A stretch of DNA of 32,464 nucleotides from a virus: positions 1-32,464 of the IMG/VR virus record IMGVR_UViG_3300013306_000043; one strand, given 5' to 3'. Below are positions 7,586-20,722 of this stretch, piece by piece. The notes below the pieces were generated by a model. The model saw only the letters and a program-made list of their open reading frames with translations, was not told the DNA's origin and ran no database searches. The position numbers and the translations under genes were made by a program. Positions within the stretch are counted from its first letter, which is position 1. Each line of letters opens with the position of its first letter.

Positions 7586-7587
7586 GT

Positions 7588-7602
7588 TACACCTAGTTTC
7601 GT
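7588..7602 (+). promoter_or_regulatory. Operator-like motif, copy 1 (TACACCTAGTTTCGT)
   Basis: This 15-bp motif lies within a 21-bp stretch (7586-7606) that is repeated exactly at 17682-17702. It is one of a family of copies found outside or at the edge of genes. It sits between the terminator and the candidate attP arm repeats. Confidence 0.5.
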
Positions 7603-7608
7603 TCAATG

Positions 7609-7630
7609 CGTCGAGTAACCGTCGAGTAAC
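7609..7630 (+). repeat. Candidate attP left arm sites: two tandem 11-bp repeats
   Basis: CGTCGAGTAAC occurs twice head to tail with no spacing (7609-7619 and 7620-7630). The same unit recurs as a second tandem pair at 7833-7854, in the same orientation, on the other side of the candidate core. Paired directly repeated arm-type sites on both sides of a core are the known layout of phage tyrosine-integrase attachment sites such as that of mycobacteriophage L5. Confidence 0.6.
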
Positions 7631-7681
7631 CCGCTACTAGGGGTGCGACTTCCGCGCCAATAAAGGGATGTAGGGCTTATG

Positions 7682-7706
7682 TGGTGATTCTGACAGGGAA
7701 TCACCA
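7682..7706. other. Candidate attP core: 9-bp inverted arms around a 7-bp spacer
   Basis: TGGTGATTC (7682-7690) and GAATCACCA (7698-7706) are perfect inverted repeats separated by TGACAGG (7691-7697). Core-binding arms of about this length around a 7-bp strand-exchange region are the expected structure for a tyrosine recombinase. It lies next to the integrase gene and between the tandem arm repeats. No tRNA 3' end resembles it, so the bacterial target cannot be named. A simple hairpin terminator is unlikely because neither side has a T-run. Confidence 0.55.
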
Positions 7707-7707
7707 G

Positions 7708-7722
7708 ACGAAACTAGGTGTG
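7708..7722 (-). promoter_or_regulatory. Operator-like motif, copy 2 (reverse orientation)
   Basis: ACGAAACTAGGTGTG is the reverse complement of copy 1 with one difference at the last base. It abuts the right arm of the candidate attP core, so copies 1 and 2 bracket the left arm repeats and core in opposite orientation. Confidence 0.5.
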
Positions 7723-7734
7723 GTTCTATTCCCT

Positions 7735-7769
7735 ACAGTTACACGAGTTTTCGTTCCCAACGAAACGAG
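7735..7769. promoter_or_regulatory. Operator-like dyad, copies 3 and 4
   Basis: ACAGTTACAC followed by a GTTTTCGT half and, after 5 bp, ACGAAACGAG in reverse. The ACAGTTACAC start and the facing TTTCGT/ACGAAA halves are shared with the dyads at 15291-15328 and 17681-17720. Confidence 0.45.
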
Positions 7770-7791
7770 AGCCCGCACGGTTTCGTAAGAC

Positions 7792-7806
7792 TTCACCCCG
7801 TTTCGT
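7792..7806 (+). promoter_or_regulatory. Operator-like motif, copy 5
   Basis: TTCACCCCGTTTCGT matches 12 of 15 positions of copy 1 and lies across the stop codon end of the integrase gene. Confidence 0.35.
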
Positions 7807-9031
7807 CCAGTGTCGGCGCGGAATCCTCAAACCGTCGAGTACCCGTCGAGTAAGCGAGTTCCAGAACCTCCCCAACATCCAACGGGGTCCTATTCGGTGC
7901 GATGTAATGGGCGAGGGTGACAGCGTCCGACGCGTGCCCCAACTGCCTGGACGCCATCACAGACCCGTGCTCAGCAGCCACCAACGTGGCGACCGTCTTG
8001 CGTAGCGTCTTCTGCGTCACCCACCGCCACGGGTACTGCTCATCCAGTTCCTTATCCGTGAGCCTGGTCTTCGCATCCCTGTCCGGGGCGAACATGTTCC
8101 GCCACGACGCCCCAAAACTCTGCGGATACAACAACCCACCCGTCGAAGACGGAAACACCATCGGCCCCACAACCTCGCCCCGACGACGCAGCAACATCTC
8201 CACCGCGAACCGGGGAAGACGCAACCTCCGAATGTCATGCTCTTTCGTCGCCGTCAGCAGAAGACCCTTACCCGGGGCGAACACAACCTGTTGCCGGATC
8301 TCAACCCACGGCACCAAATCATCCAAATGGACGTCTTCCCATGCCAACCCAATGGACTCCCCCGCCCTGCACCCCGTAGCCAACAGCAGGTCCATGACGT
8401 CCAGCGGGGTTTTCCGGCGCGACGGCCCCCTCGGATTACGCACCGACAAGACCTTGACCGCATGCTGACGCATCATCCACAGCTCCGTCACGGTCAACGC
8501 CCGAATCGGCTTAGTGTCAAGCTTCGGGACGGACGTGAACGCGACCGGGTTAGCCGGCGCCGCACCCCACCGAGCCGCGAGGGAGAACATCCCAGACAAG
8601 GCCGACCGGACCACATGCGCGGTACCGGGCCCGTTCTCCTTAGTAATGTCCCGGATGACGACATCCAGGCGCTGCGGGGTCGATTCCCGGAGGCGCAGCT
8701 TCCCGAGCCGCGGAATGATGTGGTTATCGAGTGCCCGGCGCATGTTGTACAGGGTGTTCGGGGCCAGCCCGTCCTCTTGCTTAGCGGCCCAGTACCGTTC
8801 CGCGAGTTCGGTTACGCGGGACTCTGCGTTCAGCTCAGCCGCCGAGGAGCGTTCCTTGAACTTGACCCTCAACGCGGCTTCAGCGGCGGAACGGGACGGG
8901 CCCTGCGCACTCACCCGCCGCGTTTCGCCATCCATGTCCCGAAACCGTGCCATCGACGTCCAAAGCTTGTCCCGCACTTTGGTGGAATTGATGTTGCCGT
9001 AGTCACCTATGGCTAGCTGTGGACGTGGCAC
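7793..9031 (-). CDS. int: Tyrosine integrase
   Basis: 412 residues, starting at GTG 9031 with GGGGG 5 nt upstream. Residues 1-65 are an arm-binding-type N-terminal domain, 72-165 the SAM-like core-binding domain (ELAERYWAAKQEDGLAPNTL...), and 175-395 the catalytic domain. Catalytic residues are Arg222 (TGCRAGE), Lys263 (ATKEH), Arg344 in KTLRKT, His366 (QLGHAS) and the nucleophile Tyr376 (LAHYI). The position usually held by His in HxxR is Lys341, a tolerated variation in this family. It integrates and, with an excision factor, removes the phage genome at attP, which lies directly downstream. The gene runs opposite to the structural and early genes, and its last codons overlap the candidate right arm sites. 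Confidence 0.93.
   Translation of the reverse strand: MPRPQLAIGDYGNINSTKVRDKLWTSMARFRDMDGETRRVSAQGPSRSAAEAALRVKFKERSSAAELNAESRVTELAERYWAAKQEDGLAPNTLYNMRRALDNHIIPRLGKLRLRESTPQRLDVVIRDITKENGPGTAHVVRSALSGMFSLAARWGAAPANPVAFTSVPKLDTKPIRALTVTELWMMRQHAVKVLSVRNPRGPSRRKTPLDVMDLLLATGCRAGESIGLAWEDVHLDDLVPWVEIRQQVVFAPGKGLLLTATKEHDIRRLRLPRFAVEMLLRRRGEVVGPMVFPSSTGGLLYPQSFGASWRNMFAPDRDAKTRLTDKELDEQYPWRWVTQKTLRKTVATLVAAEHGSVMASRQLGHASDAVTLAHYIAPNRTPLDVGEVLELAYSTGTRRFEDSAPTLDETG
7833..7854 (+). repeat. Candidate attP right arm sites, inside the integrase 3' end
   Basis: CGTCGAGTACC (7833-7843) and CGTCGAGTAAG (7844-7854) form a second tandem pair of the 11-bp unit found at 7609-7630. They lie within the last codons of the integrase gene, where they encode the Y-S-T-G-T-R segment (residues 394-399). 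Confidence 0.6.
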
Positions 9032-9057
9032 CCGTTACCCCCGATTATAGTGAAGTG

Positions 9058-9087
9058 CTTATACTCCATTTTCCCATGAAATGTCAA
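9058..9087 (-). promoter_or_regulatory. Promoter for the integrase
   Basis: On the minus strand TTGACA (9087-9082) is followed after 18 bp by TATAAG (9063-9058). Transcription would start near 9051, about 20 nt before the integrase GTG at 9031. A second TATAAT (9049-9044) lies just downstream. The -35 box is a perfect consensus, so integrase can be made independently of the repressor operon upstream. Confidence 0.6.
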
Positions 9088-9092
9088 GTAAG

Positions 9093-9632
9093 TCACGCGG
9101 GGACCATCATTGCGGCGCGCATTTGGATGGCGGGGCATTTTTGGCACTCCCAACAGCCGGCGTCACTGGCTTGGGAGTCGGTGAGGGTCGCGGCCCGATC
9201 CATCAACACCTGCCTGGTGACGCTCAGATCCCTCGCGATCGACCCCAGCGACTTCCCGTCCTTACACACCCCGACAATACGGTCTAGGGGCAACAGGCGC
9301 CGCGCCGTCTCATACCTGACAGACATCTCCACCGCCTCCGACTGATGCCCAACATGGCCCCGCTCCAAATGGATCGACTCATGAAGGACGGTGCACAACA
9401 TCTGCTCCGAACTGAGCCGGTCATCTAGGAAGATGTTCACCCCGTCCGTGTACCCGGCGTAACCATCTGACAATCGCTTCGTAACCACCTGAACCACAAC
9501 GAGCCCCGCAAACTGTCGTAACCCCAGCCCCCCAGTGGTGCTGATTGGGTAGAGCCTAAGGGCACTACCTGACAGTTTTGTTCGAAAGTATGTTCTAGAA
9601 CGGTCACGATTTTCGCATAAATCAGATAACAA
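9093..9632 (-). CDS. ImmA/IrrE-type zinc metallopeptidase
   Basis: Up to 179 residues. The HExxH zinc-protease motif is at residues 84-88 in TVLHESIHLERGH, followed by an acidic stretch (SEAVE) that supplies the third ligand, as in ImmA/IrrE peptidases. These enzymes cleave or inactivate phage repressors and switch on lytic or excision genes. The C-terminal end carries CWECQKC, a possible second metal site. The start is uncertain: the open frame begins at TTG 9632, but its first 25-30 codons are A/T-rich and unlike the rest, and no ribosome site is seen. GTG 9497, preceded by GCGGGG, is an alternative that would leave about 134 residues. It follows the repressor on the same strand. Confidence 0.8.
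   Translation of the reverse strand: MLSDLCENRDRSRTYFRTKLSGSALRLYPISTTGGLGLRQFAGLVVVQVVTKRLSDGYAGYTDGVNIFLDDRLSSEQMLCTVLHESIHLERGHVGHQSEAVEMSVRYETARRLLPLDRIVGVCKDGKSLGSIARDLSVTRQVLMDRAATLTDSQASDAGCWECQKCPAIQMRAAMMVPA
9592..9601. promoter_or_regulatory. 10-bp palindrome in the repressor-ImmA spacer
   Basis: GTTCTAGAAC is a perfect palindrome within an A/T-rich stretch (about 9570-9655) that also holds GTTCGAA. It may be an operator or part of a promoter for the peptidase gene if that gene starts at 9497 rather than 9632. Confidence 0.3.
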
Positions 9633-9665
9633 ACAGTTATAAGCAGCATCACCGCAGGTCAGACG

Positions 9666-10355
9666 CTAGTCTTCATCCTCAGCTTCAAGGTGCTCCATGT
9701 TTCGGCCCGCAGACGTCCCATGCGCCGCCACGTCATACATGTCCTGATCGTCACCCAACGGCACCACGCTGCCGCCACGCAAACGCTCATTCTCTGCCCG
9801 CAACCGCTCGTTATCCTTCTCCAGCCCATCAAGACGCCGGATAACCTCCATGCCCAAATCAGCGTTAGACAAATCCCGGGCCTTCACAAGGCCAGGCTCA
9901 GGCATCGCGGCCCAATCCCGCACCTCGGACAGTGTGAACGTCTTCGTGATCGGCGCCTCCAGAATCTCCGTCACCACACCCCGACGCCAACCAAGCGCAT
10001 CCTCCAACATCGGGCGCGACTTCTTCAACGGCGTCACGTCACCATCACGCCAGAAATAGAACGACCGCAAAGCCGACGACGTCCACCCCTTAGCAACGTC
10101 ATAAGGACCACGCCGCGACTCATCCATCTCCTCCTTGATCAGACGTGACAGCTCGGCCCGGTTGTCGTCTGGCGTCTCCATGTGCAGGACTTCCCGGATT
10201 GCGCCCATCCTCGAACGCGGCACGGATTCTCCCCGTTCCCAACTACCAACAGTTCGCAGCGAGACGCCCAGCTCATCTGCTAACTCCTGCTGGGTGAGGT
10301 GCCGGCGCTCACGCTGTTCCTTGATCTGCTCACCCGTAATGTTCATGCCTGCCAC
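9666..10355 (-). CDS. Immunity repressor, HTH N-terminus with coiled-coil C-terminus
   Basis: 229 residues. Residues 7-60 are a Cro/CI-type helix-turn-helix (IKEQRERRHLTQQELADELG, then SLRTVGSWERGESVPRS). A middle region (75-150) is of unknown fold. Residues 165-195 form a heptad-like coiled coil (IRRLDGLEKDNERLRAENER) suited to dimerisation. There is no S24 peptidase domain, so it is not a self-cleaving LexA/CI protein; the neighbouring ImmA-type peptidase is the likely inactivator. GTG 10355 has AGGAAG at a spacing of about 9; ATG 10346, three codons on, is possible. It points away from the Cro-like gene, the usual genetic-switch arrangement. It probably maintains lysogeny by binding operators in the immunity region and perhaps the dispersed motifs. 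Confidence 0.8.
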   Translation of the reverse strand: MAGMNITGEQIKEQRERRHLTQQELADELGVSLRTVGSWERGESVPRSRMGAIREVLHMETPDDNRAELSRLIKEEMDESRRGPYDVAKGWTSSALRSFYFWRDGDVTPLKKSRPMLEDALGWRRGVVTEILEAPITKTFTLSEVRDWAAMPEPGLVKARDLSNADLGMEVIRRLDGLEKDNERLRAENERLRGGSVVPLGDDQDMYDVAAHGTSAGRNMEHLEAEDED

Positions 10356-10391
10356 GATTCACCACTTCCTGCCTTCCGGCAATCAAACGGG

Positions 10392-10411
10392 GTACTGGTC
10401 TTTTCCAGTAC
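10392..10411. promoter_or_regulatory. Inverted repeat upstream of the repressor
   Basis: GTACTGG and CCAGTAC face each other across TCTTTT. It begins 37 bp upstream of the repressor GTG, so it may be an operator for autoregulation or a leader hairpin. Confidence 0.4.
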
Positions 10412-10571
10412 GTGCCCGTAGTCACTACCCGAACCACAACCGTGCAACTAGGTGCTGCCCGGTCCTGCTCATGGCTTCACATTGGCACGGGCCGGGTGAG
10501 AAACACAAAGAATCATTGCCGGAAACATCGGGGCGAAACGCGCGAAATACAAAGGTGTGGTTATCCGAACA

Positions 10572-10586
10572 TACATCCAGTTTCGT
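10572..10586 (+). promoter_or_regulatory. Operator-like motif, copy 6
   Basis: TACATCCAGTTTCGT matches 13 of 15 positions of copy 1 (TACACCTAGTTTCGT). It lies about 100 bp upstream of the Cro-like gene, which links the motif family to the immunity region. Confidence 0.45.
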
Positions 10587-10619
10587 GCCCGAAATCCGCG
10601 CCGTTTCGCGGAACTACCG

Positions 10620-10661
10620 ATTGTTTCCTACTTCTTCCCTTTTGGACTTCCTATTGTTTCC
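10620..10661 (+). repeat. Two direct repeats ATTGTTTCC, 33 bp apart
   Basis: Identical 9-mers at 10620-10628 and 10653-10661, immediately upstream of the extended -10 element of the Cro-like gene. The spacing puts them on the same face of the helix. They are plausible binding sites for one of the two HTH regulators. Confidence 0.4.
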
Positions 10662-10667
10662 ACTACC

Positions 10668-10676
10668 TGCTACTGT
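10668..10676 (+). promoter_or_regulatory. Extended -10 promoter element for the early operon
   Basis: TGCTACTGT has the TGn extension followed by a -10-like TACTGT. The expected start is 6-7 nt downstream, at about 10682-10684, which coincides with ATG 10683. No good -35 box is seen at normal spacing, as expected for an extended -10 or activated promoter. Confidence 0.4.
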
Positions 10677-10682
10677 CATCAC

Positions 10683-10943
10683 ATGAGAACAACAGGAACG
10701 GGGGTAGCCCCCAAGAACCCAGAGAACGAAAGAGTCGGCGAAACCATCCAGGCCTTCCGCGAACGCTACGGATACACGCAAGACGAACTGGCCCGCGAAG
10801 TCGACATCAGCCGTTCGCACCTCGCCAACATCGAAGCCGGACGCAAACCACTCAGCAACCGGCACCTCTCCAAGATCGCCGACCTACTCGGCGTCAAACC
10901 CCTCGCAATCAAGCGATACGACTCCGAGCAGGTGGCAGCATGA
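10683..10943 (+). CDS. Cro-like HTH regulator
   Basis: 86 residues. Residues 20-72 form a Cro/CI-type helix-turn-helix (ETIQAFRERYGYTQDELARE, then DISRSHLANIEAGRKPLSNR). It is small, with no extra domain, and is divergent from the repressor, so it is the likely Cro analogue that shuts off the repressor. ATG 10683 has no ribosome site upstream, and the only promoter-like element places the transcript start at the ATG, suggesting a leaderless message. The longer open frame upstream (from 10557) runs through the A/T-rich control region and is rejected. It ends in Val-Ala-Ala with an ATGA overlap to the next gene. Confidence 0.75.
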   Translation: MRTTGTGVAPKNPENERVGETIQAFRERYGYTQDELAREVDISRSHLANIEAGRKPLSNRHLSKIADLLGVKPLAIKRYDSEQVAA

Positions 10944-11401
10944 GGGCCGCCGAAGAACGCTTCTGGGCCAAGGTCAACAAGACCGAAGGATGCTGGCTCT
11001 GGACGGCAGCGTGCACGCGGACGGGCTACGGGCATTTTTGGAACGGCGAAAAAATGCAGCAGGCGCACCGCTTCTCCATCGAATTGGTAACTGGAGTGGC
11101 AACCGCCGAGCACGTCGACCACACCTGCCACACCCCGGCCTGCGTCAACCCAAGCCATCTTCGCCGGGTGAGCCGGAAGCAAAACATGGAGAACCGCCGA
11201 GGCGCCAACGCGACAAACAAGTCAGGCTTCCGCGGTGTCTCCAAGACCAATACGCCGGGCTTGTGGCAGGCGACCGTGTGTCATAACGGGAAGCAAATCC
11301 ACCTTGGCTACTTCACTGACGCGGAAGCCGCGGGCGAAGCAGCGAAGTCTAAACGCCTGGAACTCTTCACCCACAACGACGCAGACAAGAACGCCGCGTG
11401 A
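10940..11401 (+). CDS. HNH homing endonuclease with AP2 domain
   Basis: 153 residues. Residues 7-85 hold an HNH nuclease: the first histidines are in HVDHTCHTPAC (58-68), followed by VNPSHLRRVSRKQNMENR with Asn70 and His73; CysxxxCys (63, 67) may bind zinc. Residues 95-137 are an AP2/ERF-like DNA-binding domain (SGFRGVSKTN...LWQATVCHNGK...HLGYFTDAEAAGEAA). This HNH-AP2 combination is typical of free-standing homing endonucleases in phages, which make a site-specific double-strand cut and promote their own copying. It is inserted as the second gene of the early operon and is coupled by ATGA to the Cro-like gene, so it is expressed early. Confidence 0.85.
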   Translation: MRAAEERFWAKVNKTEGCWLWTAACTRTGYGHFWNGEKMQQAHRFSIELVTGVATAEHVDHTCHTPACVNPSHLRRVSRKQNMENRRGANATNKSGFRGVSKTNTPGLWQATVCHNGKQIHLGYFTDAEAAGEAAKSKRLELFTHNDADKNAA

Positions 11402-11580
11402 TGGCGGTGACGACGATCTGGTCCACAACGCACACGGCGCCAATCACCTTCGATCGGATCAGCCCGACCATCGTGCAAATCACCCTCGCCGATGGATCAA
11501 CCCAGATCTACTACGCAGCCGACCTCGAAGCCGTCTGCAAAAACGAATCAGCACAAAACCACCAAGGAGACACCAAATGA
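11401..11580 (+). CDS. Small protein of unknown function
   Basis: 59 residues from ATG 11401, sharing bases with the endonuclease stop (TGATG); the GTG just before it (11398) is also possible. Sequence is mostly beta strands with a TLADGSTQIYYAADLEAV segment. I do not recognise the family. No ribosome site of its own is clear, so it is probably translated by coupling. Part of the early operon. Confidence 0.55.
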   Translation: MAVTTIWSTTHTAPITFDRISPTIVQITLADGSTQIYYAADLEAVCKNESAQNHQGDTK

Positions 11581-11753
11581 ACGCCCCCAAGCACCGCGCA
11601 GAACCGAACGAAGCAACCCTCGAATTCTGGCGCTTCGAAGCAAACATGGAACGCCTCCACGGCGTGAAGCCCGTCATCCTCCCCGGCTTCGGCAAGCACC
11701 GCGCACCGTCCATCATGGCCGTCACCGAGACGGAAGCTGAGGTAGCAGCATGA
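11577..11753 (+). CDS. Small protein of unknown function
   Basis: 58 residues (MNAPKHRAEPNEATLEFWRF...), with AAGGAGA 6 nt before ATG 11577 and an ATGA overlap with the previous stop. No recognisable domain. It ends Glu-Val-Ala-Ala, produced by the GAGGTAGCAGC ribosome site of the next gene. Confidence 0.6.
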   Translation: MNAPKHRAEPNEATLEFWRFEANMERLHGVKPVILPGFGKHRAPSIMAVTETEAEVAA

Positions 11754-11950
11754 GCGCCCGGGATGAACTGGCCGAATTGATTGCCAGCGAGTTGCCCGGC
11801 GACGTCTACGCCTGCACCCGCGTCTGGGAAGCATGGAGCTACGGCACCATGAGCCAGGACGACTTCACCCCCGCCAACGAGGAGGCGGACCTGATCGCAG
11901 AGATCGCCGACGCGATCCTCGCCGCTGGGTACCAAAAGGTAGTTGCGTGA
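11750..11950 (+). CDS. Small acidic helical protein, unknown function
   Basis: 66 residues (MSARDELAELIASELPG...). Strongly acidic and helical with two amphipathic segments (1-14 and 44-62: EEADLIAEIADAILAAGYQK). Preceded by GAGGTAGCAGC-ATGA. Such short acidic proteins are frequent in actinophage early regions and function is not known. Its stop overlaps the next ATG. Confidence 0.6.
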   Translation: MSARDELAELIASELPGDVYACTRVWEAWSYGTMSQDDFTPANEEADLIAEIADAILAAGYQKVVA

Positions 11951-12315
11951 TGGGCCGCGTTACGGAACCCCAGGCCCGGCAGATCATCCGGGAAATGTGC
12001 TCCCAGTTCATCGAAGACGAACCAGCCCGCAGTGAGAGCGTGATGGCGGAGTTGGACCGGATCGAACAGCTCGAAGACGACATCACCGCCCTGATCGGTG
12101 CGGACATCAGGCACGGGTCACTGGCTGACACGCTCACCACGCTCGACGGCATTCAGTCCGTCGAATGCGGCACCCACCCCGACCTTGACCGGAACCGGGC
12201 GCTCACAGTCAACAACGCCCCCGACATCCTCGACACCCTCGAATCACAACTCCGCGAAGACCTCTACTTCGTCCTCCAGGCGGCCGGCTTCACAGCACGG
12301 AGGTACGCAGCATGA
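11950..12315 (+). CDS. Small acidic protein of unknown function
   Basis: 121 residues from ATG 11950, overlapping the previous TGA. It has a helical N-terminus (TEPQARQIIREMCSQFIEDE), a Leu/Glu-rich centre (ELDRIEQLEDDITALIG) and a helical C-terminus ending Tyr-Ala-Ala. No catalytic motif or zinc site is visible. Early operon gene with coupled translation. Confidence 0.6.
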   Translation: MGRVTEPQARQIIREMCSQFIEDEPARSESVMAELDRIEQLEDDITALIGADIRHGSLADTLTTLDGIQSVECGTHPDLDRNRALTVNNAPDILDTLESQLREDLYFVLQAAGFTARRYAA

Positions 12316-12437
12316 ACGACGCCGAAGCCCTCGCGGAAATCAGCAAGCTCATCGACCAAGGCGACGACGAGATTAGCGACTTCGCCATTCTCCTTCGAAT
12401 CGCAAAGATCCTCGGGCAGAACGAAGGTTCCAAGTGA
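12312..12437 (+). CDS. Very small helical protein (41 residues)
   Basis: ATG 12312 follows GGTACGCAGC and overlaps the previous stop (ATGA). The 41-residue product (MNDAEALAEISKLIDQGDDE...) is acidic and helical. Its stop overlaps the GTG of the next gene. Coding is supported by coupling on both sides and G/C-rich third positions. Confidence 0.5.
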   Translation: MNDAEALAEISKLIDQGDDEISDFAILLRIAKILGQNEGSK

Positions 12438-12547
12438 ACGCCCTGATCCTGGTCCTTCTGCTCGTCACCGCGGGCCTCATGATCGGCCCCGCGTTCCGAT
12501 ACGACGCAGACCTACCCATCAGCACCACAGGAAAGGCACGCAAATGA
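12434..12547 (+). CDS. Very small single-pass membrane protein (37 residues)
   Basis: GTG 12434 overlaps the previous stop (GTGA). Residues 2-19 are a clear membrane segment (NALILVLLLVTAGLMIGP), followed by a short polar tail. The stop overlaps the next ATG. Small membrane proteins of this kind occur in phage early regions; some affect superinfection or membrane function, but there is no specific evidence here. Confidence 0.5.
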   Translation: MNALILVLLLVTAGLMIGPAFRYDADLPISTTGKARK

Positions 12548-12690
12548 GCAGCGCACGCATCTCATTCACGAAGGAAGAACTAATCAAACTGAGCCACTAC
12601 TACGGACCCGCGTGGGGCTATGACACCAAAGGCGCTAAGAAGATCGCCAAAGCGCTCGAACAGATCGAAGAAGCGGAGGCCTCGAAGTGA
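12544..12690 (+). CDS. Small helical protein of unknown function (48 residues)
   Basis: ATG 12544 lies in AGGAAAGGCACGCAAATGA, giving AGGAAAGG as ribosome site and ATGA coupling. Product MSSARISFTKEELIKLSHYY... is basic in the middle and acidic at the end. The stop overlaps the next GTG. No family recognised. Confidence 0.55.
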   Translation: MSSARISFTKEELIKLSHYYGPAWGYDTKGAKKIAKALEQIEEAEASK

Positions 12691-12833
12691 TCGAGCTTAC
12701 CGGGAACCTCGAAGTGCACCGCCCCGAACGCCGCGACTGGGAAACCGAAGGATGGGCCGATATCGAAGCCCACGCCCGGGCCACCATCAACCGGCTCATG
12801 ACCGACTCCAACAACCCGGACGGTGACCTGTGA
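12687..12833 (+). CDS. Small protein of unknown function (48 residues)
   Basis: GTG 12687 overlaps the previous stop; GGAGGCC at 12676-12682 is its ribosome site. Product MIELTGNLEVHRPERRDWET... has a helical second half (GWADIEAHARATINRLMTD). Unrecognised. Its stop overlaps the GTG of the following gene. Confidence 0.5.
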   Translation: MIELTGNLEVHRPERRDWETEGWADIEAHARATINRLMTDSNNPDGDL

Positions 12834-12961
12834 ACGACTGGCGGGATGAAGACCCGCCCAAACCGCCAACCCGCACCAGCGCAGGAATGTGCAAACCAGA
12901 CTGCGCCTGCCAACAAGACGACGCCTACACCACACCACTAGACCTAGAGGAGTTCAACTAA
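12830..12961 (+). CDS. Small Cys-containing protein (43 residues)
   Basis: GTG 12830 overlaps the previous stop, with GGTGACC just upstream. The product contains CKPDCAC (residues 21-27), a possible metal site, and a Pro/Lys-rich N-terminus. The stop TAA shares a base with the ATG of the exonuclease gene, and the GAGGAG (12948-12953) inside its end is that gene's ribosome site. Function unknown. Confidence 0.5.
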   Translation: MNDWRDEDPPKPPTRTSAGMCKPDCACQQDDAYTTPLDLEEFN

Positions 12962-13812: not shown

Positions 13813-14588
13813 ACGAGATCGTGAAGGCTGAGGGCAACACCCTCGCCACGAAGATGCAGTACGCACAGGCCATGGCGGGGTCTTCCCTGCTCCCCCGCGA
13901 CTACCAGGGGAAGCCGGCGAACCTGCTGTTCGCTCTGGAGTACGCCGACGCGCTGGGCATCGCCCCCATCCACGCGATCACGTCTATCCACGTGATCAGC
14001 GGGAAGCCGTCCGCGTCCGCTGACCTGATCGCCGCATCCGTGCGCCGGGCCGGGCACAAGCTGCGGGTCACGGGTGACGACACCTACGCCGAAGCCGTCC
14101 TCATCCGTTCCGACGACCCCGAGTTCGAGTACGTCGCACGGTGGGACATGGCGAAAGCGCGGCAGGCGAACCTCAACACCGCCACATGGAAGGCGTACCC
14201 CGCCGCGATGCTCCGCTCCCGCGCCATCACCGAGGTGGCACGCATGGGCGCATCAGACGCCCTCTACGGCGTGATCTACACCCCGGAGGAGTTGGGCGCC
14301 GAGGTCGACAAGGACGGGGCGCCCGTACCCGCCCCCACGTTCGCCAAGCCCGCGTCGCGGGTTCAGCAGGCCATGAACGCCGACCCCGAACCCGAACCGG
14401 CCCCGATGGAGGACTTGGGGGAACGCGTCGAACGCGACTGGCTCGAGGAAGCAGGGGAACTCACCGACGTCGACGCGCTCCGGGCACTCTGGTCCGAAGC
14501 CCAAGCAGCCGGCGCCGAACCCGGCATCCTCGACAGCATCCAGCTCCTCGCCAAGCCAACCCCCGCCGATGCACCCGCCTTGCCATAA
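13809..14588 (+). CDS. recT: RecT-family single-strand annealing protein
   Basis: 259 residues. The core (about residues 15-165) shows the phage RecT pattern: MQYAQAMAGSSLLPRDYQGK, ANLLFALEYADALGI and HAITSIHVISGKPSASADL, then RRAGHKLRV and AAMLRSRAITEVARMGASDA. The C-terminal 90 residues are acidic and Pro/Ala-rich. It binds the 3' single strands made by the exonuclease and anneals them to complementary DNA. ATG 13809 overlaps the exonuclease stop in AGCAGCATGA. The 3' end overlaps the next small gene by 20 bp. Confidence 0.88.
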   Translation: MNEIVKAEGNTLATKMQYAQAMAGSSLLPRDYQGKPANLLFALEYADALGIAPIHAITSIHVISGKPSASADLIAASVRRAGHKLRVTGDDTYAEAVLIRSDDPEFEYVARWDMAKARQANLNTATWKAYPAAMLRSRAITEVARMGASDALYGVIYTPEELGAEVDKDGAPVPAPTFAKPASRVQQAMNADPEPEPAPMEDLGERVERDWLEEAGELTDVDALRALWSEAQAAGAEPGILDSIQLLAKPTPADAPALP

Positions 14589-15272: not shown

Positions 15273-15275
15273 GCC

Positions 15276-15328
15276 ACATTTTTGCCCGCTAACAGTTACA
15301 CCCCGTTTCACTAACCCACGAAAAGGTG
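15276..15328. promoter_or_regulatory. Intergenic dyad element A (operator copy 7), duplicated at 17665
   Basis: Directly after the ssb stop: ACATTTTTGCCCG, ACAGTTACACC, GTTTCAC, then after 6 bp ACGAAAAGGTG in reverse. The same order of blocks occurs at 17665-17720, also directly after a stop codon. The facing halves match the 15-bp operator-like motif. Confidence 0.5.
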
Positions 15329-15353
15329 CCCCGTCCACCACGGTCGGGGCACC
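15325..15353 (+). terminator. Hairpin downstream of ssb
   Basis: GGTGCCCCG (15325-15333) pairs with CGGGGCACC (15345-15353), loop 11 nt. No T-run follows, and the ribosome site of the next gene begins 3 nt later, so it may act as a partial terminator, RNA processing site or translational hairpin. Confidence 0.45.
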
Positions 15354-15369
15354 ACAGGAAGGAACCACA

Positions 15370-15681
15370 ATGAGCAACTACCTCCCCGGTCAGTCCAACG
15401 TCAAAGACCTCAACAAGAAGCTGAAGGAGTACCGCGAAGTCGAACAGCAGATCGAAGACGCGATCATCGAGAAACGCCGCGAACTGGCCCGCATCGAAGC
15501 CGCCAAACACAAACTCAAGATGAGGGCGACCTACGAACCCACCCAAGAATCGTGGGACTACTGGGAAGCGCACGCCCTCGAACTCGCTAAGCAGCCCCGC
15601 CCCATCCACGGCGGACCCGCAGGACTCCGCAAAGCCGCCGCTGAGGCCGCGGCACACGACGCAGCAAGGAAGGCAGCATGA
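15370..15681 (+). CDS. Coiled-coil protein of unknown function
   Basis: 103 residues with AGGAAGGAA before ATG 15370. Residues 10-55 are a strongly charged coiled coil (VKDLNKKLKEYREVEQQIED...EKRRELARIEAAKHKLK). The end is Ala-rich (AAAEAAAHDAARKAA). It is the first gene after the ssb intergenic element. No family recognised; it might be an adaptor for the replication proteins downstream. Confidence 0.6.
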   Translation: MSNYLPGQSNVKDLNKKLKEYREVEQQIEDAIIEKRRELARIEAAKHKLKMRATYEPTQESWDYWEAHALELAKQPRPIHGGPAGLRKAAAEAAAHDAARKAA

Positions 15682-16001
15682 AGAACCCCACCGTCTACAG
15701 AGAAACCTGCGGCACAGCAGCCGGCTACCGCGCACACACTCACCGCGGCGAAGAACGCTGCGAACCGTGCAAGAAGGCATGGACCAAGAACTGTGACAAA
15801 TACCGGCGCCCGACTACGCCTAACAGCCAGGTCCTCATCGAAGAAATCGAGTGGCTCCTCAAAGCGCACCAAGGAAGCCACTACATCCTCAAAGCTGTCG
15901 GCTACACCGGACGCGAAGGAACGCTCAGGTCGCGGCTCGAAAAGCACAACCGGGCCGACCTCGCACGCAGACTGCTCCGCATGGAAGACCAGGCAGCATG
16001 A
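15678..16001 (+). CDS. Small zinc-binding-like, basic protein
   Basis: 107 residues. The N-terminus carries CGTAAGYRAHTHRGEERCEP followed by CKKAW, a Cys-x(n)-His-x(n)-CxxC arrangement (Cys11, His20/22, Cys28, Cys31) widespread in actinobacteria and their phages. The second half is helical (VLIEEIEWLLKAHQGSHYIL) and could be a helix-turn-helix: LKAVGYTGREGTLRSRLEKH. DNA binding is therefore plausible. ATGA coupling on both sides, ending Gln-Ala-Ala. Confidence 0.6.
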   Translation: MKNPTVYRETCGTAAGYRAHTHRGEERCEPCKKAWTKNCDKYRRPTTPNSQVLIEEIEWLLKAHQGSHYILKAVGYTGREGTLRSRLEKHNRADLARRLLRMEDQAA

Positions 16002-16393
16002 CCAAGGACACGCGCCCGTACTTCACGTTGACGAACGAGTACCCGAGGCACCGGAAGATCCGCACACTCAGCGACAAAGCGTTCCGGCTCCACGTCGAAC
16101 TCATCGCCGACTGCAACGACGCCCAAAGCGACGGCAAATTCAGCAAACACGAACTCAACATGCGCGGCACCAGGGCAGGAAAGGAACTCATCGAAGCAGG
16201 GCTAGTCGAAGAACACGAAGGCGGATACCAGCTCCACGACTACCTCATACACCAGCACTCAAAGCAACAAATCGCGGAGTACAAAGCCAACAAAGCAGGG
16301 GCCGGCGGGGTTGGGGCGCACACCAGGCACCACATCAAAAAGGGAGTCTTCGAGATCGGGTGCAAGCACTGTCAAGAGGCCCGGGCAGGCTAG
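15998..16393 (+). CDS. Replication initiator-like winged-helix protein
   Basis: 131 residues from ATG 15998 (overlaps the previous stop). The N-terminal 85 residues follow the pattern of phage replisome organiser / helix-turn-helix replication proteins: YFTLTNEYPRHRKIRTLSDK, AFRLHVELIADCNDAQSDG, then GKELIEAGLVEEHEGGYQLH and DYLIHQHS. The last 30 residues have HTRHH and CKHC, a possible zinc site. Proteins of this type recruit helicase or load replication factors at the phage origin. Directly after its stop lie TAGCA-type iterons and an A/T-rich stretch, so it probably binds there. It is shorter than typical organisers, with a truncated or absent DnaD-like C-terminal part. Confidence 0.65.
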   Translation: MTKDTRPYFTLTNEYPRHRKIRTLSDKAFRLHVELIADCNDAQSDGKFSKHELNMRGTRAGKELIEAGLVEEHEGGYQLHDYLIHQHSKQQIAEYKANKAGAGGVGAHTRHHIKKGVFEIGCKHCQEARAG

Positions 16394-16450
16394 CAAACGC
16401 TTAGCACGTGCTAACGGTCTGCTTTAGCAAACGGCTAGCAAAACTTAGCA
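16391..16450. repeat. Iteron-like TAGCA repeats, candidate replication origin
   Basis: Five forward TAGCA (16391, 16402, 16425, 16436, 16446) and one reverse TGCTA (16409) occur in 60 bp. Extended forms are TAGCAAACG and TTAGCAC. The segment TTAGCACGTGCTAA (16401-16414) is a perfect palindrome. The first copy overlaps the stop codon of the replication protein gene. Confidence 0.55.
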
Positions 16451-16563
16451 CCATAAACATAACCATAAACAACTACTCTCACCTCACGCTGTTGGCAGCT
16501 TCTAAAGAAGTTGGGGTACTTTCCGCCGCCGACGTCACCTACTTAACGCGAAGGTCTCACACC
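16451..16563. other. A/T-rich stretch next to the iterons (candidate unwinding element)
   Basis: CATAAAC, CATAACC and CATAAAC follow one another at 16452-16470, directly right of the iterons, in the most A/T-rich sequence of the early region. The rest of the gap to ATG 16564 holds no convincing gene. An A/T-rich tract next to iterons is the expected place for initial strand opening. Confidence 0.4.
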
Positions 16564-16923
16564 ATGACAGAAAAATTCGATGAAGAAGACGCCAAAAACC
16601 TCTACTGGATCATCCAACGACGACGCCCCGGCTGGCACTGGAAAGGCATCATGCACTCACTACAGCAAGCAGCATCACGGGGCGCTTCACTGACCCAGGT
16701 GATGGCGGCGGCGGAGAAGACCTGGAACAACAAAAAAGCCACAACCCCCGCAGCGATCCTCTGGGATGAGCACTGGGAAGCTGCCAAGACACAAGCAGCC
16801 GGGAACATCATGGCCCCCCGCCTCTGCGTCGAATGCACACCAGCCCGCAAACACCCCGTCACCGAAATGACCAAACAGGGTCACGGCTGGGTCTGCAACA
16901 ACCACACGGAGGACGGCAAATGA
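16564..16923 (+). CDS. Unknown protein with C-terminal Cys/His motif, next to the origin
   Basis: 119 residues from ATG 16564 (GAAGG upstream). The frame is open further left, but that part covers the iterons and A/T-rich sequence and is rejected. The N-terminal 75 residues are helical and basic (EEDAKNLYWIIQRRRPGWHW, then LQQAASRGASLTQVMAAAEK). The C-terminus has CVEC and a later GWVCNNH, which together could bind zinc. Its position after the initiator gene and candidate origin suggests a helicase-loader or primase-accessory role, but no family was recognised. Confidence 0.6.
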   Translation: MTEKFDEEDAKNLYWIIQRRRPGWHWKGIMHSLQQAASRGASLTQVMAAAEKTWNNKKATTPAAILWDEHWEAAKTQAAGNIMAPRLCVECTPARKHPVTEMTKQGHGWVCNNHTEDGK

Positions 16924-17255
16924 GGCTCGAGAGGCGACCGCTGTCCGTTGAAGAGTTTGAACTGCTCGTGACTCAGGTGATCATTCCGAACCACTGGAAA
17001 GGCTCTGAGCCACTCACGGAACGGCAGGTCAGGCGGGTAGGCAATAACGCTCACTGGGAACACGTGCTCGAGGAAGTCTCGCAGGTCACTCGGGACAACT
17101 ACTTGGGACACATCAGAACATGGTGGGCAATCCGCGACGCGAACAACGCCGAACGCTTGACCAGATGCCCTGAAGACAACCGCTACTGCATGCCAGGTCT
17201 CGACGGAAGCCCGTGCGACGCACACCAAGAGATCGCAGATGAGGTAGCAGCATGA
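16920..17255 (+). CDS. Unknown protein with C-terminal Cys cluster
   Basis: 111 residues, ATGA overlap with the previous gene and GGAGG upstream. A helical N-terminal part (LSVEEFELLVTQVIIPNHW...LTERQVRRVG) and a Trp/His-rich middle are followed by CPEDNRYCMPGLDGSPCDAH (residues 85-104), a possible metal-binding loop. It ends Glu-Val-Ala-Ala, from the GAGGTAGCAGC ribosome site of the resolvase gene. Function unknown. Confidence 0.6.
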   Translation: MRLERRPLSVEEFELLVTQVIIPNHWKGSEPLTERQVRRVGNNAHWEHVLEEVSQVTRDNYLGHIRTWWAIRDANNAERLTRCPEDNRYCMPGLDGSPCDAHQEIADEVAA

Positions 17256-17665
17256 CCACTATTGAGAATGGTTCGCAAGAAGCAAGCGCGACCCGTTCGC
17301 GGGCGCGGAGTAGGCGTTCGGCGAAGGCCGCGGGGAGTGGGCATGAGCGGTCTGTCGCGGATTACCTGAAGCTGCACGTGTCCCGGTTCATCGACAAGAT
17401 GCCGAAGTATGGGGCGCGTGATCGTGGGGACATCCTGAATGTGGAGACGTTCAACAGCTTGCCCGTGGCGATTGAGTGCAAAGAATATGGGGGCCGGCTG
17501 ATGGTCGGTCCTTGGCTGGCTGAGGCTGAGACGGAGCGTGGTCACCTGGGGGCCGTGGCGGGGGTTGTGATCGCCAAACGCCGCGGGACGACAGACCCGG
17601 GCGACCAGATTGTTCTCATGACCACACGCGACCTCGTAGCCCTCCTGACGGGTTCCAGGCCCTAA
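17252..17665 (+). CDS. Holliday-junction resolvase-like nuclease (PD-(D/E)XK)
   Basis: 137 residues. After a basic, Ser/Arg-rich N-terminus the sequence SGHERSVADYLKLHV (Glu32), GARDRGDI (Asp60), VAIECKEYGG (Glu75, Lys77) and VVIAKRRG follows the order of an Hjc-like endonuclease active site: E...D...ExK. Small actinophage resolvases of this kind have about the same length. It would cut branched recombination and replication intermediates before packaging. It completes the RecE/RecT/SSB set and is coupled to the previous gene. Dyad element B follows its stop directly. Confidence 0.78.
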   Translation: MTTIENGSQEASATRSRARSRRSAKAAGSGHERSVADYLKLHVSRFIDKMPKYGARDRGDILNVETFNSLPVAIECKEYGGRLMVGPWLAEAETERGHLGAVAGVVIAKRRGTTDPGDQIVLMTTRDLVALLTGSRP

Positions 17666-17720
17666 CATTTGCCCGAAAACAGTTACACCTAGTTTCGTTC
17701 AAACCACGAAACGAGGTGTA
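17665..17720. promoter_or_regulatory. Intergenic dyad element B (operator copies 8 and 9)
   Basis: TACACCTAGTTTCGT (17684-17698) and ACGAAACGAGGTGTA (17706-17720) are inverted repeats with one mismatch around a 7-bp spacer. The left half lies in a 21-bp stretch identical to 7586-7606. The preceding blocks ACATTT-GCCCG and ACAGTTACACC are shared with the element at 15276. It may be an operator or an RNA hairpin; no T-run follows. Confidence 0.6.
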
Positions 17721-17724
17721 GAAT
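17698..17724 (+). promoter_or_regulatory. Possible promoter overlapping dyad element B
   Basis: TAGAAT (17719-17724) is a good -10 box preceded by TG, with a weak -35 (TTCAAA or GTTCAA) 15-16 bp upstream, within the dyad. If used, it would drive the gene at 17774 and be blocked by a protein bound to the dyad. Confidence 0.3.
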
Positions 17725-17773
17725 TGAACCATAGGTCCGAAGCAGCGGGCCCGGAAAAGTGGAGATGAGCGCC

Positions 17774-18190
17774 ATGACTGAAGCAATAACATTCCCCGAA
17801 TGGGCAACGCCAGGAAGTGGCGTCCTTGTCGTCAAGACCAAATACAACGTCAAGAGCATCCAGGCTGGCAAGGTGTCCCGCCTAACCAAGACCCGGATCA
17901 TTGTCACGGTAGACACAGGATCGCGGCAGTATGATCTTCAGTTCGTCCCGAGCAAGTACGCCGAGGGCCAATGGTCGGAATATGGGCGCGGTAGTTCGTG
18001 GGACATCCCGGCCAAGTTGGAGCCAATCGACTCCGCGGAAGCCGAAGCACTGATTTCGGAGAAGCGAGTCGAGCACCTACAGGTCAAGGCTTCAATGGCG
18101 TGTGAAGAGTTCAGGTCCAAGCGAACCGTCCCCGAAGCTGAGGCTGCGATTGCCGCCCTGAACGCCTACATCGAAGCGGCGATGTCATGA
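17774..18190 (+). CDS. Unknown protein, beta-rich N-terminus and helical C-terminus
   Basis: 138 residues from ATG 17774, with GGAGAT (17761-17766) at a suitable distance; ATG 17765 and GTG 17759 are too close to that site. Residues 5-85 look like a small beta barrel (SGVLVVKTKYNVKSIQAGKV...RIIVTVDTGSRQYDLQFVP). Residues 90-138 are helical. First gene after dyad element B, so possibly under separate control. No family recognised. Confidence 0.6.
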   Translation: MTEAITFPEWATPGSGVLVVKTKYNVKSIQAGKVSRLTKTRIIVTVDTGSRQYDLQFVPSKYAEGQWSEYGRGSSWDIPAKLEPIDSAEAEALISEKRVEHLQVKASMACEEFRSKRTVPEAEAAIAALNAYIEAAMS

Positions 18191-18324
18191 CCATCATTGA
18201 TGAACTGATCACCCTCGTGGACAACCTGAATGAGGACGGCCACGACTACCGCGACGTGCGGGCGATCAAACGGATCACGCACAACCTCGCCAAGATCAAC
18301 GAAAACCTGAAAGCCCACAAATGA
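18187..18324 (+). CDS. Very small protein (45 residues)
   Basis: ATG 18187 overlaps the previous stop (ATGA). Product MTIIDELITLVDNLNEDGHD... is helical and ends in a basic segment (KRITHNLAKINENLKAHK). The stop overlaps the next ATG. No family recognised. Confidence 0.5.
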   Translation: MTIIDELITLVDNLNEDGHDYRDVRAIKRITHNLAKINENLKAHK

Positions 18325-18521
18325 GCTTCGAGGCGAAGTATTCCGGGTGGTGTGCTGAATGCGACGATCGCATCCACATCGGCGACGACATCACCTACAC
18401 GGACAACACTGGCACGCTCGTGCACATGGACTGCGAGGGCTCGGCCCAGCCTGAACGCAAAGCCGAAGTATGCGGCACGTGCTGGCTGACAAAGCCTTGC
18501 GACTGCGAGCCCTCAGCGTGA
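18321..18521 (+). CDS. Small zinc-ribbon protein
   Basis: 66 residues. CAEC (11-14), His35 and Cys38 in LVHMDC match a treble-clef-like zinc finger of the type C-x2-C...G-D-x-I-x-Y...H-x2-C common in actinophage small proteins. A second cluster, CGTCWLTKPCDC (51-62), may bind another zinc. ATGA-coupled to the preceding gene. Likely binds nucleic acid or a protein partner; target unknown. Confidence 0.6.
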   Translation: MSFEAKYSGWCAECDDRIHIGDDITYTDNTGTLVHMDCEGSAQPERKAEVCGTCWLTKPCDCEPSA

Positions 18522-18745
18522 CGGCGCCCACGTTGGACGGCCCGGAGCTTGTCGCCCGGATACTGGCCCGGAAGTTGGAGTCGGACCTTATCCGGCAGGA
18601 AGCGAACCACGCCCGCCTCGCGTCCGAGGCCGCAGCGTTGGGCACACGACCCGAAGCCAGGTCAGCGTGGGAGTTAGTCCACGAAGCAGCCGGCATCAAA
18701 GCACGCACCCAATCACGACTCACACAACACAGGTGGACAGCATGA
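18518..18745 (+). CDS. Small helical protein (75 residues)
   Basis: Start chosen at GTG 18518, which overlaps the previous stop, rather than the upstream ATG 18470 that lies wholly inside the zinc-ribbon gene. Mostly helical and basic (ELVARILARKLESDLIRQEA...). Ends Trp-Thr-Ala with ATGA coupling. Unrecognised. Confidence 0.55.
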   Translation: MTAPTLDGPELVARILARKLESDLIRQEANHARLASEAAALGTRPEARSAWELVHEAAGIKARTQSRLTQHRWTA

Positions 18746-18903
18746 GCAAGTGGAGAGTTTGGAAGTCAAGGCCCGTCGACTTGTGGTGGGCAATGGAGAG
18801 GGCATGCGAAGACGCCGACAGCGTGTATTGCGTTTGCCGCAGCTTCAACACGTGGCACGACGCTATGAGCTACGTCAAGGGGTACTTGGCGGTGACAGCA
18901 TGA
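18742..18903 (+). CDS. Small protein (53 residues), Trp- and Cys-containing
   Basis: ATG 18742 in GGACAGCATGA. Product MSKWRVWKSRPVDLWWAMER... has CVC near residue 30. The pattern W-R-V-x(8)-W at the start followed by a short helix recurs in small actinophage proteins of unknown function. Coupled by ATGA to both neighbours. Confidence 0.55.
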   Translation: MSKWRVWKSRPVDLWWAMERACEDADSVYCVCRSFNTWHDAMSYVKGYLAVTA

Positions 18904-19061
18904 CCGAGGACACCCTTGAGGCTCAGGCCCGCGACCAGGAACCCGCGACGGACCCGTGGGAGCGTCGTTGCCGTCAAGCCGCGTACCTCCTCCGCAACGG
19001 TTTAGGCAACGGAACCCTCGAACTCACCCGAATCCTCGACATCCTCGAAAAGGCGGCATGA
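18900..19061 (+). CDS. Small protein (53 residues)
   Basis: ATG 18900 in GACAGCATGA. Acidic N-terminus and helical C-terminus (RQAAYLLRNGLGNGTLELTR), ending Lys-Ala-Ala. ATGA coupling to the next gene. Unrecognised. Confidence 0.5.
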   Translation: MTEDTLEAQARDQEPATDPWERRCRQAAYLLRNGLGNGTLELTRILDILEKAA

Positions 19062-19528
19062 ACGTGAAGCACGACAACACGACCGGGCTACCCGAGGTAC
19101 CCGAAGGCCACTGGTGGGAAGTGCGGAAGTTCTCGCGGATCGATTACTTCCCATATGGCTACGGCTCCGTTGAGGTGGACGACGGCTACAAGGTTTGCCT
19201 CATGAAGAAGGTGACGGTCCCGGCGCGCGTGACGCGTGGACATCGCTGGTGGGAGCTGTCAAAGTACACTCCCGAGCATGTCAAGGATGAGGTCCTGTTT
19301 CAGAAGCAGATCACCGACCCGAAGCGTTACCGGGATTGGTCTAGCAGCTCGCTCTCCGCACCGTACAGCAAGGTTGGCAAAGTCTTCATCGAACCGGCAG
19401 ACGTCCTCAAGACGGCGAAGGACATTGTCGACATGGTCTTTGAGGCAGCGGATCATGCATCGCGCAAGGAAATCTCGGACGGGCTCGTTGGGGTTTACCC
19501 GCCCAAGGCTCTGGAGGCCAGCGAATGA
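19058..19528 (+). CDS. Unknown protein (156 residues)
   Basis: Starts at ATG 19058 (ATGA overlap). Aromatic-rich N-terminus with VPEGHWWEVRKFSRIDYFPY and a related VTRGHRWWELSKY at residues 58-70, suggesting an internal duplication of a G-H-x-W-W-E motif. The C-terminus is helical. No catalytic motif is seen. Early operon gene; function unknown. Confidence 0.6.
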   Translation: MNVKHDNTTGLPEVPEGHWWEVRKFSRIDYFPYGYGSVEVDDGYKVCLMKKVTVPARVTRGHRWWELSKYTPEHVKDEVLFQKQITDPKRYRDWSSSSLSAPYSKVGKVFIEPADVLKTAKDIVDMVFEAADHASRKEISDGLVGVYPPKALEASE

Positions 19529-20313
19529 CCTGCACGTGCGAGTCCACCCCGGACGGCATATACCTGTGCAACACGTGTTGTGAGGGTTTGGAGTGGTTGC
19601 TGGGGGAGCTGGATAGTGTGGTGGGGGATCTGGTGCGGGCTGTTCCGCGCGCGAGTCTGACGGCCAGCTACGGTGAGCGGGTCAGCAGTTCGGGTAGTTT
19701 GCACGCGCCGTTGCCGGTGAACGAGGCCGCACTCGACGCGCACATCGCGTTGGACAAGTACCTCATGGTCACCGCGCTCGAACTCGCGAAGGTCACGGGT
19801 GCCAGGCTCACAGGCCGGGACTCCTCCGCACTCTCCAGTTACGTCCTGTCGCACATCGGCACGCTTAGGACCCAGTCGTGGGCGTGCGACGTTGAACCCA
19901 CACTCCGGGCGTTGGTGCGCGACTGTGAGAAGGCCACACGCACCGCGACGCAGGCCGAGTTCGCCGGCACCTGCCCCACGGACAACACGGAACTGTTCAC
20001 CCACGCAGGCGGGAACACAGCGACCTGCCGGACCTGCTCCGTCGTGTACGAGGATGTGCAGGGTTGGCGGTCCACCGCGAAAGCCTACGCCCGCGCTACC
20101 GACGACGACATTGTTGGCTACCCCAAAGCCCTCTCCGAACGCCTCGCCAAAGTCCACGGCGAAACGGTCGGTGCCGACTACATCCGGGTACTCGCAGCAC
20201 GCGGCCTACTCGTCAGGGTCAACCCCGAACGCTCAGAGGACGGGAAAGTGTTGCGGCCCATGTACCGGCTCGGCGATGTCAAAGCACTGATTACGAAAGA
20301 GGAAGCGGCATGA
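19525..20313 (+). CDS. Zinc-binding protein with winged-helix-like C-terminus
   Basis: 262 residues. N-terminal Cys3, Cys5, Cys15, Cys18, Cys19 (CTC...LCNTCCEGLEWLLGELD) look like a metal site followed by a helical domain. A central zinc ribbon is GTCPTDNTELFTHAGGNTAT followed by CRTC. The C-terminal 80 residues (DIVGYPKALSERLAKVHGET and following, YIRVLAARGLLVRVNPE) resemble a helix-turn-helix or winged helix. Actinophage proteins with this layout are common and unassigned; they may be DNA-binding regulators acting late in the early operon. ATGA-coupled on both sides and ends Glu-Ala-Ala. Confidence 0.6.
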   Translation: MTCTCESTPDGIYLCNTCCEGLEWLLGELDSVVGDLVRAVPRASLTASYGERVSSSGSLHAPLPVNEAALDAHIALDKYLMVTALELAKVTGARLTGRDSSALSSYVLSHIGTLRTQSWACDVEPTLRALVRDCEKATRTATQAEFAGTCPTDNTELFTHAGGNTATCRTCSVVYEDVQGWRSTAKAYARATDDDIVGYPKALSERLAKVHGETVGADYIRVLAARGLLVRVNPERSEDGKVLRPMYRLGDVKALITKEEAA

Positions 20314-20480
20314 GCGATTCCACCGGCCCCGTACTTGTCCTTGAAAGCTCGTTCGCGGGTGGTTTCATGGCGGGGCGAATGAACGCCGAGTACACGCACT
20401 ACGACATCATCGCCACCGGCACCGAAGAGGCCATGATGAGGGTCGCTAAGGCAGCCAACTACGGTGACGACGCAGCATGA
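20310..20480 (+). CDS. Small protein (56 residues)
   Basis: ATG 20310 in GGAAGCGGCATGA. Product MSDSTGPVLVLESSFAGGFM... is compact and alternates strands and a C-terminal helix ending Asp-Ala-Ala. ATGA overlap with the next gene. Unrecognised. Confidence 0.5.
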   Translation: MSDSTGPVLVLESSFAGGFMAGRMNAEYTHYDIIATGTEEAMMRVAKAANYGDDAA

Positions 20481-20662
20481 TCGGCTGGACGATAGCTGCG
20501 GTGCTCTATGTAATATTCACGGCAGTCCTCACGGTTACCGTGAACATCCTGCGCGGCTGCTGGTGGAAGGCGCTCGGTATTGTGCTCGGGGTGCAGGCGG
20601 GGGCCTTCGTCTTCTACGTCTTGATTGCTGTGGCATTTGTAGCCATCAAGCGCGGCGTTTGA
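20477..20662 (+). CDS. Small membrane protein, two membrane segments
   Basis: 61 residues. Hydrophobic segments at 2-22 (IGWTIAAVLYVIFTAVLTVT) and 33-56 (ALGIVLGVQAGAFVFYVLIA and following), short loop with Arg-Gly-Cys-Trp-Trp-Lys between. Last gene of the early operon before the regulatory stretch. It resembles holin-sized or superinfection-exclusion-type membrane proteins, but no specific family is recognised. Confidence 0.6.
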   Translation: MIGWTIAAVLYVIFTAVLTVTVNILRGCWWKALGIVLGVQAGAFVFYVLIAVAFVAIKRGV

Positions 20663-20694
20663 AACGAAGTGTAACTCTTACGAATTTAGGTGTT
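20661..20694 (-). promoter_or_regulatory. Operator-like motif, copies 10 and 11, overlapping a promoter
   Basis: GAAACGAAGTGTAAC (20661-20675) and ACGAATTTAGGTGTT (20680-20694, 12 of 15 matches) are two imperfect copies in the same reverse orientation. The second covers the -35 box at 20693, so binding would block that promoter. Confidence 0.5.
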
Positions 20695-20722
20695 GACTTT
20701 GATACGCGGTTGAACTTACAAT
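20693..20722 (+). promoter_or_regulatory. Promoter (TTGACT - 18 bp - TACAAT)
   Basis: The -35 box TTGACT is at 20693-20698 and the -10 box TACAAT at 20717-20722. Expected start is near 20729. It follows the end of the early operon and is overlapped by operator-like copy 11. Confidence 0.6.

Follow-up and report, generated by a model that had tools for sequence, protein, structure and literature searches.

A dispersed 15-bp motif of a temperate phage, probably an operator set read by the second DNA-binding domain of its repressor

The 32,464-bp IMG/VR virus record IMGVR_UViG_3300013306_000043 (the window, which is the whole stretch analysed here, and G000 in genome numbering) contains multiple copies of an asymmetric 15-bp motif, TACACCTAGTTTCGT. 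We consider it very probable that these copies are the dispersed operators of a temperate phage and that they are recognized by HTH2, the second of two helix-turn-helix (HTH) domains in its 229-residue repressor. Comparison with relatives suggests that this repressor has two DNA-reading heads, one addressed to the main switch and the other to the scattered sites. The motif itself, its enrichment, spacing, and fusion to promoters are seen directly in the genomes, as is the fact that the motif is inherited together with HTH2 and the switch sites together with HTH1; from these we infer that the repressor physically binds the motif sites and represses there.

A search of the window with TACACCTAGTTTCGT, allowing three or fewer mismatches, gives seven matches, at 7588(+), 7708(-), 7792(+), 10572(+), 17684(+), 17706(-), and 20680(-), compared with 0.28 expected and no more than two in any of 100 dinucleotide shuffles. 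With four mismatches allowed, sites at 7740(+), 15297(+), and 20659(-) are added, along with 13789 and 22209, both of which are within genes. When a weight matrix built solely on three other phages, with 25 sites, is run against the window, it recovers ten sites (7588, 7708, 7740, 7792, 10572, 15297, 17684, 17706, 20659, and 20680), nine of them scoring at or above the threshold of 12, compared with 0.50 expected and a maximum of two in 100 shuffles. The repeated motif described in an initial annotation of this DNA is thus real, and the enrichment is confirmed by the weight-matrix comparison with shuffled sequence that had been proposed for the window and its relatives. The 21-bp stretch said to be shared exactly by 7586-7606 and 17682-17702 is indeed identical, and the sites lie, as described, outside genes or at gene edges: 10 of 11 are intergenic, compared with 9.5% of the window (binomial p 6e-10), although the gene calls are rough, coming from a simple script and not a trained gene finder, and the matrix behind this list counted the window sites among its own and had been iterated with a loose threshold. 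That matrix drifted and was kept out of the main counts. The one remaining site overlaps the end of the integrase gene. In an unsupervised search for over-represented intergenic words, the motif ranks first in the window and in all three of the relatives described next. Searching viral contigs for the exact 15-mer gave 12 matches, one of them in a relative; six of the others were inspected and showed few additional matches, which we take as chance, and pair-pattern searches of viral contigs returned known relatives only.

The three motif-bearing relatives (G001, IMGVR 3300046689_000119; G002, 3300047673_000112; and G014, 3300047319_000419) have 12, 11, and 12 matrix sites scoring at least 12, respectively, compared with nine in the window and none to two in 18 other phages. 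These sites are mostly at matching places, namely around the putative attP, following the region of the RusA-like gene, and upstream of that of DUF7455. Neighbouring sites less than 120 bp apart are spaced by 21-22 bp in 15 of 23 cases and by 31-32 bp in 5 of 23, in direct and inverted pairs alike, so that they would lie on one helix face, two or three turns apart. Most promoter groups include a site that runs into a -10 box (GTGTAGAAT and variants) or a -35 box (GTGTTGACT), always at the ACAC end of the site. In the window, the site at 17684..17698 (+, score 26.5) forms the left half of an inverted pair with 22-bp spacing, and that at 17706..17720 (-, 26.3) is joined, upstream of gene 17774, to the -10-like box TAGAAT. 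The site at 20659..20673 (-, 13.2), at the end of gene 20477-20662, is the first of two direct copies spaced by 21 bp, and the second, at 20680..20694 (-, 14.8), is fused to the -35 of a promoter, TTGACT-18-TACAAT (20693-20722), the best sigma-70-like promoter in the 7-21 kb interval. The second of these sites was correctly placed in the initial annotation; the first had been put at 20661 and is found at 20659(-), with four mismatches.

Such overlap of site and promoter would be expected if the site is an operator that keeps polymerase from binding. An alternative is that the motif is a conserved early-promoter or activator element, read by some other phage or host protein, and fusion to -10 and -35 boxes would suit such an element, as would the presence of several group-specific small proteins of unknown function. 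However, the site lies across the promoter core in the manner of an operator, arrays also occur without promoters, and exchange of HTH2 comes with exchange of the dispersed motif (see below), and we regard an activator element as improbable. The promoter at 20693 and the sequence just 3' of it are common to the window, G002, and G014; in the window, a GC-rich hairpin (20736-20761) lies 3' of the promoter, and from there no gene is called over a long stretch, up to 20947.

The repressor gene (9666..10355, -) encodes HTH1 (residues 8-56), HTH2 (66-133), a coiled coil (164-194), and an acidic tail. The product is XRE/cI-like in both domains, HTH1 by its match to the Pfam profile PF01381 (HTH_3; E 9e-11), and HTH2 by predicted fold only; HTH2 has no Pfam or PHROG profile match, and its structure, predicted in isolation, is confidently of the XRE fold (ComR, Z 8.1, with 71 aligned at 2.6 A, a middling value; TP901-1 CI, Z 7.4). 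Adjoining the repressor gene is one for an ImmA/IrrE-like metallopeptidase with an HExxH motif (9093..9497, -; phrog_87 metallo-protease), the arrangement typical of an ImmR-ImmA-type switch.

Relatives in which HTH1 and HTH2 have been exchanged amount to a domain-swap experiment, in which the motif follows HTH2. The window and G001 agree in both HTH1 and HTH2, and both carry the motif. G002 has a different HTH1 (about 30-32% identical to that of the window) and the same HTH2, and G014, with a repressor of 157 residues, has no HTH1 and the same HTH2; both carry the motif. In G003 and G004, HTH1 is kept (75% identical to the window's) and HTH2 is replaced (28-29% identical); the motif matrix finds zero and one match, respectively, and these genomes carry a different intergenic dispersed motif, TCACTGnnnnTCACTG. 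HTH2 identity is 72-89% among the four motif bearers, and 19-33% between these and the G003/G004 type. Furthermore, the repressors of five other genomes (G018, G019, G020, G021, and G029) consist of the G003-type HTH2 alone, and the same TCACTG motif is present there; G019 derives from a cultured isolate (IMG 2932078316). HTH2 type matches dispersed motif type in every tested case of these two main classes, and the motif thereby covaries across relatives with a DNA-binding domain of the repressor. The initial annotation had either the repressor or the Cro-like protein binding all of the sites, and only the former stands as the best explanation, with the motif tracking HTH2 and not the N-terminal HTH. 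The Cro-like protein (10683..10943, +) is a small predicted HTH protein within the switch and as such a candidate, but Cro is 67-68% identical in G003 and G004, where the motif is absent, and is diverged or has no detectable relative in the motif bearers G001, G002, and G014; on this covariation we rejected Cro, for which the likelihood is very slight indeed. The ImmA-like peptidases of G003 and G004 are 67-69% identical to that of the window. An acidic C-terminal tail, YDLAASDEHVxGEDDRD, is conserved in repressors with exchanged DNA-binding domains (for example, those of G001 and G003), and is a possible target of the ImmA-like peptidase.

The repressor/cro intergenic region contains one dispersed site (10572..10586, +, score 16.9), together with two local switch sites, TTGTTTCC, at 10621..10628 (+) and 10654..10661 (+), that go with HTH1. 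Words of the form [AT]TGTTTC[CA] occur in this region three times in the window, twice in G001, and three times each in G003 and G004, which are the genomes sharing HTH1, and zero or one time elsewhere in the same genomes. There are none in the repressor/cro regions of G002 and G014; G002 has three copies of TTATGCGAA instead, and in G014 the words are TATTGCA and TTGCACT. Most simply, HTH1, perhaps together with Cro, would read the switch, and HTH2 the dispersed set. The switch half of this model is the weaker, because the words were picked after inspecting these regions and Cro partly covaries with HTH1.

Several observations weigh against assigning the dispersed set to HTH2. First, the 15-bp site is asymmetric, which is unusual where an XRE domain acts as a symmetric dimer. 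Second, no strong dispersed site is present in the repressor/cro region of G001 or G002. Third, the G025 repressor has an HTH2 that is 47-51% identical and an HTH1 that is 60-68% identical, and its genome has neither the motif nor TGTTTCC sites; it is either a counter-example or a diverged case. Fourth, other early genes are likewise common to the four motif bearers, and general relatedness through descent is a confounder; seven shared early proteins have no match to a DNA-binding family, although small unknown proteins could still bind DNA. This confounder is weakened, though not removed, by the exchange that took place in parallel in the TCACTG group and by the lack of DNA-binding matches in the early proteins tested. 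A Fisher value calculated alongside the site counts takes related phages to be independent and is not to be read as significance. Fifth, no promoter fusion is recognizable at 13840/13862 in G001, at 15297 in the window (15297..15311, +, score 14.8, between ssb and gene 15370), or at the sites between the integrase arm-type repeats.

The window site at 15297 and those between the arm-type repeats, none with an obvious promoter, would be more readily accommodated if the motif were a stoperator of the L5 type, where one repressor recognizes asymmetric sites within transcription units, blocks elongation, and places both of its domains on one composite site. The repressor here, like the one in the TipsytheTRex structure (PMC9283540), has two DNA-binding domains, and the sites are likewise asymmetric, dispersed, and intergenic. 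Only for these three properties of the sites does the analogy with L5 drawn in the initial annotation hold. It fails in that most groups hold a site that merges with a -10 or -35 box, the sites are phased in pairs of mixed orientation, and the L5 consensus is absent; the best match in the window to the 13-bp GGTGGMTGTCAAG type is a single one with two mismatches. Moreover, the motif survives replacement of HTH1 in G002 and its loss in G014, and the site is therefore not a composite of both domains; the domains do not read one site together. By sequence, the window repressor matches no repressor of the L5/TipsytheTRex kind in the PDB and nothing in 50,697 phage records; the TipsytheTRex repressor is not in the fold-search lists, which excludes nothing. 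With the consensus absent and the motif independent of HTH1, a stoperator role is not supported, and we consider it unlikely.

If the dispersed set is read by HTH2, the repressor in the prophage state would occupy phased site pairs and arrays overlapping the -10 or -35 boxes of several promoters, and the transcription units of those promoters would be shut. HTH1, probably in competition with Cro, would read the separate TGTTTCC sites at the repressor/cro switch. Cooperativity may be provided by the repressor coiled coil, and relief of repression by the neighbouring ImmA-like peptidase. A bolder version, which we hold tentatively and with less than even confidence, is that of a two-address repressor, in which HTH1 and HTH2 read unrelated operator sets and are exchanged independently, and the HTH2-bound form may also gate integration or excision. 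It is the placing of sites between the arm-type repeats of the integrase that suggests direct gating.

The densest array of sites is at the putative attP, beside the tyrosine integrase gene (7793..9031, -). A consensus copy at 7588..7602 (+, score 26.5) lies just after the tail-operon terminator and to the left of a tandem repeat, GTCGAGTA, present twice with an 11-bp period (7610..7628, +); a second such repeat is at 7834..7852 (+), on the other side of the putative attP core, and these flanking repeats are probably arm-type sites of the integrase. Between them are dispersed sites at 7708..7722 (-, 19.7), at 7740..7754 (+), and at 7792..7806 (+, 16.2), overlapping the 3' end of int. The 7740 site had been described as part of a 7740/7760 dyad, but is itself weak (10.6), and its partner at 7760 retains the GTTTCGT half alone. 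In relatives, three tandem sites are followed at attP by an arm-type repeat pair and the putative core, then by an inverted pair with 32-bp spacing, a second arm pair, and two more motif sites, and the window sites at 7708-7806 are also between two arm-type repeats. The sites in this region could control outward promoters, of which G001 has two, both running straight into a start codon, or could interfere directly with integration and excision. In G001 (L041), genes at 863 (minus) and 1245 (plus) both start within approximately 10 bp of an operator-fused -10 box, which suggests that leaderless transcripts diverge from attP there.

The interleaving of the array with other repeats, next to int, raises the alternative that the sites are integrase arm-type or excision-factor sites, with the copies elsewhere being incidental. 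However, the integrase has its own candidate arm repeats, and comparable tandem GTCnnGTA pairs, varying in spelling between relatives, are found in G001, G002, and G014 and also in G013, G016, and G025, which have at most one motif match each. Integrases 51-53% identical exist in genomes without the motif, which is therefore not shared among related integrases, and the sites 8-13 kb away sit on promoters. We rejected the motif as an integrase arm site, and regard this alternative as very unlikely.

Phage operators that are repeated beyond chance, lie outside genes, and overlap promoters, as these sites do, are known from other systems. In phiC31, with its CIR sites, and in P1, with the operators of C1, one repressor acts at many scattered operators at early promoters; the phiC31 CIRs are inverted repeats, and for neither phage do we know of a described second head with a separate address. 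The ImmR-ImmA modules of the ICEBs1 and phi105 type likewise have an XRE repressor beside an ImmA metallopeptidase, but ImmR has a single HTH, and its operators are limited to the switch region. In SPbeta, the 15-bp SPBRE element is repeated in promoter regions across the prophage and is bound by the master repressor MrpR (YopR) (PMC10516654). The likeness lies in a 15-bp element repeated across a phage genome and a single master repressor, which is presumed in our case, but MrpR has a tyrosine-recombinase fold, whereas here the presumed binder has two XRE-HTH domains and is encoded beside an ImmA-like protein. The cluster A mycobacteriophages L5 and TipsytheTRex also have many copies of asymmetric intergenic sites, and both domains of the repressor contact one 13-bp site (PMC9283540); here the dispersed motif is independent of HTH1 and forms phased pairs mostly on promoters, and we found no similarity in site or protein sequence. 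The L5-type case was the only phage repressor with two DNA-binding domains found in our literature search, which covered few subscription papers. Dispersed operators of a repressor are therefore not new, and what differs here is apparently one repressor with two heads, each having its own operator set. If so, a phage can separate control of the decision switch from control of the remaining genome, and can change the two halves of its immunity type separately. The naturally swapped repressors allow the address of each DNA-binding domain to be read from genomes, and the prediction is that swapping HTH2 will swap the dispersed targets.

The gene order in the window is tail genes, the putative attP region, integrase, ImmA-like peptidase, and repressor (all three minus), followed by the Cro-like gene (plus), early genes including a RecE/RecT-like pair, ssb, and RusA, and then terminase and portal. 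Rfam and tRNA scans of the window found nothing, and neither a search of genome contigs nor one of the 50,697 phage records returned a relative of the repressor. De novo motif searches gave nothing convincing in G015-G017, G023, G024, and G027. A candidate motif in G025 (IMGVR 3300005288_000096), CAGTnCTnTnCAG, is intergenic at six of six positions, but was found post hoc in one genome and is tentative. G026 (IMGVR 2643221899_000002) has nine copies of CTACTTGA, all intergenic and in four regions, which tentatively, from this one genome, is a possible dispersed motif of another repressor type. Finally, arrays of a 6-bp repeat, AGATAC, are near both ends of the G004 contig (77-120 and 41431-41480), and probably reflect terminal redundancy of the assembly.

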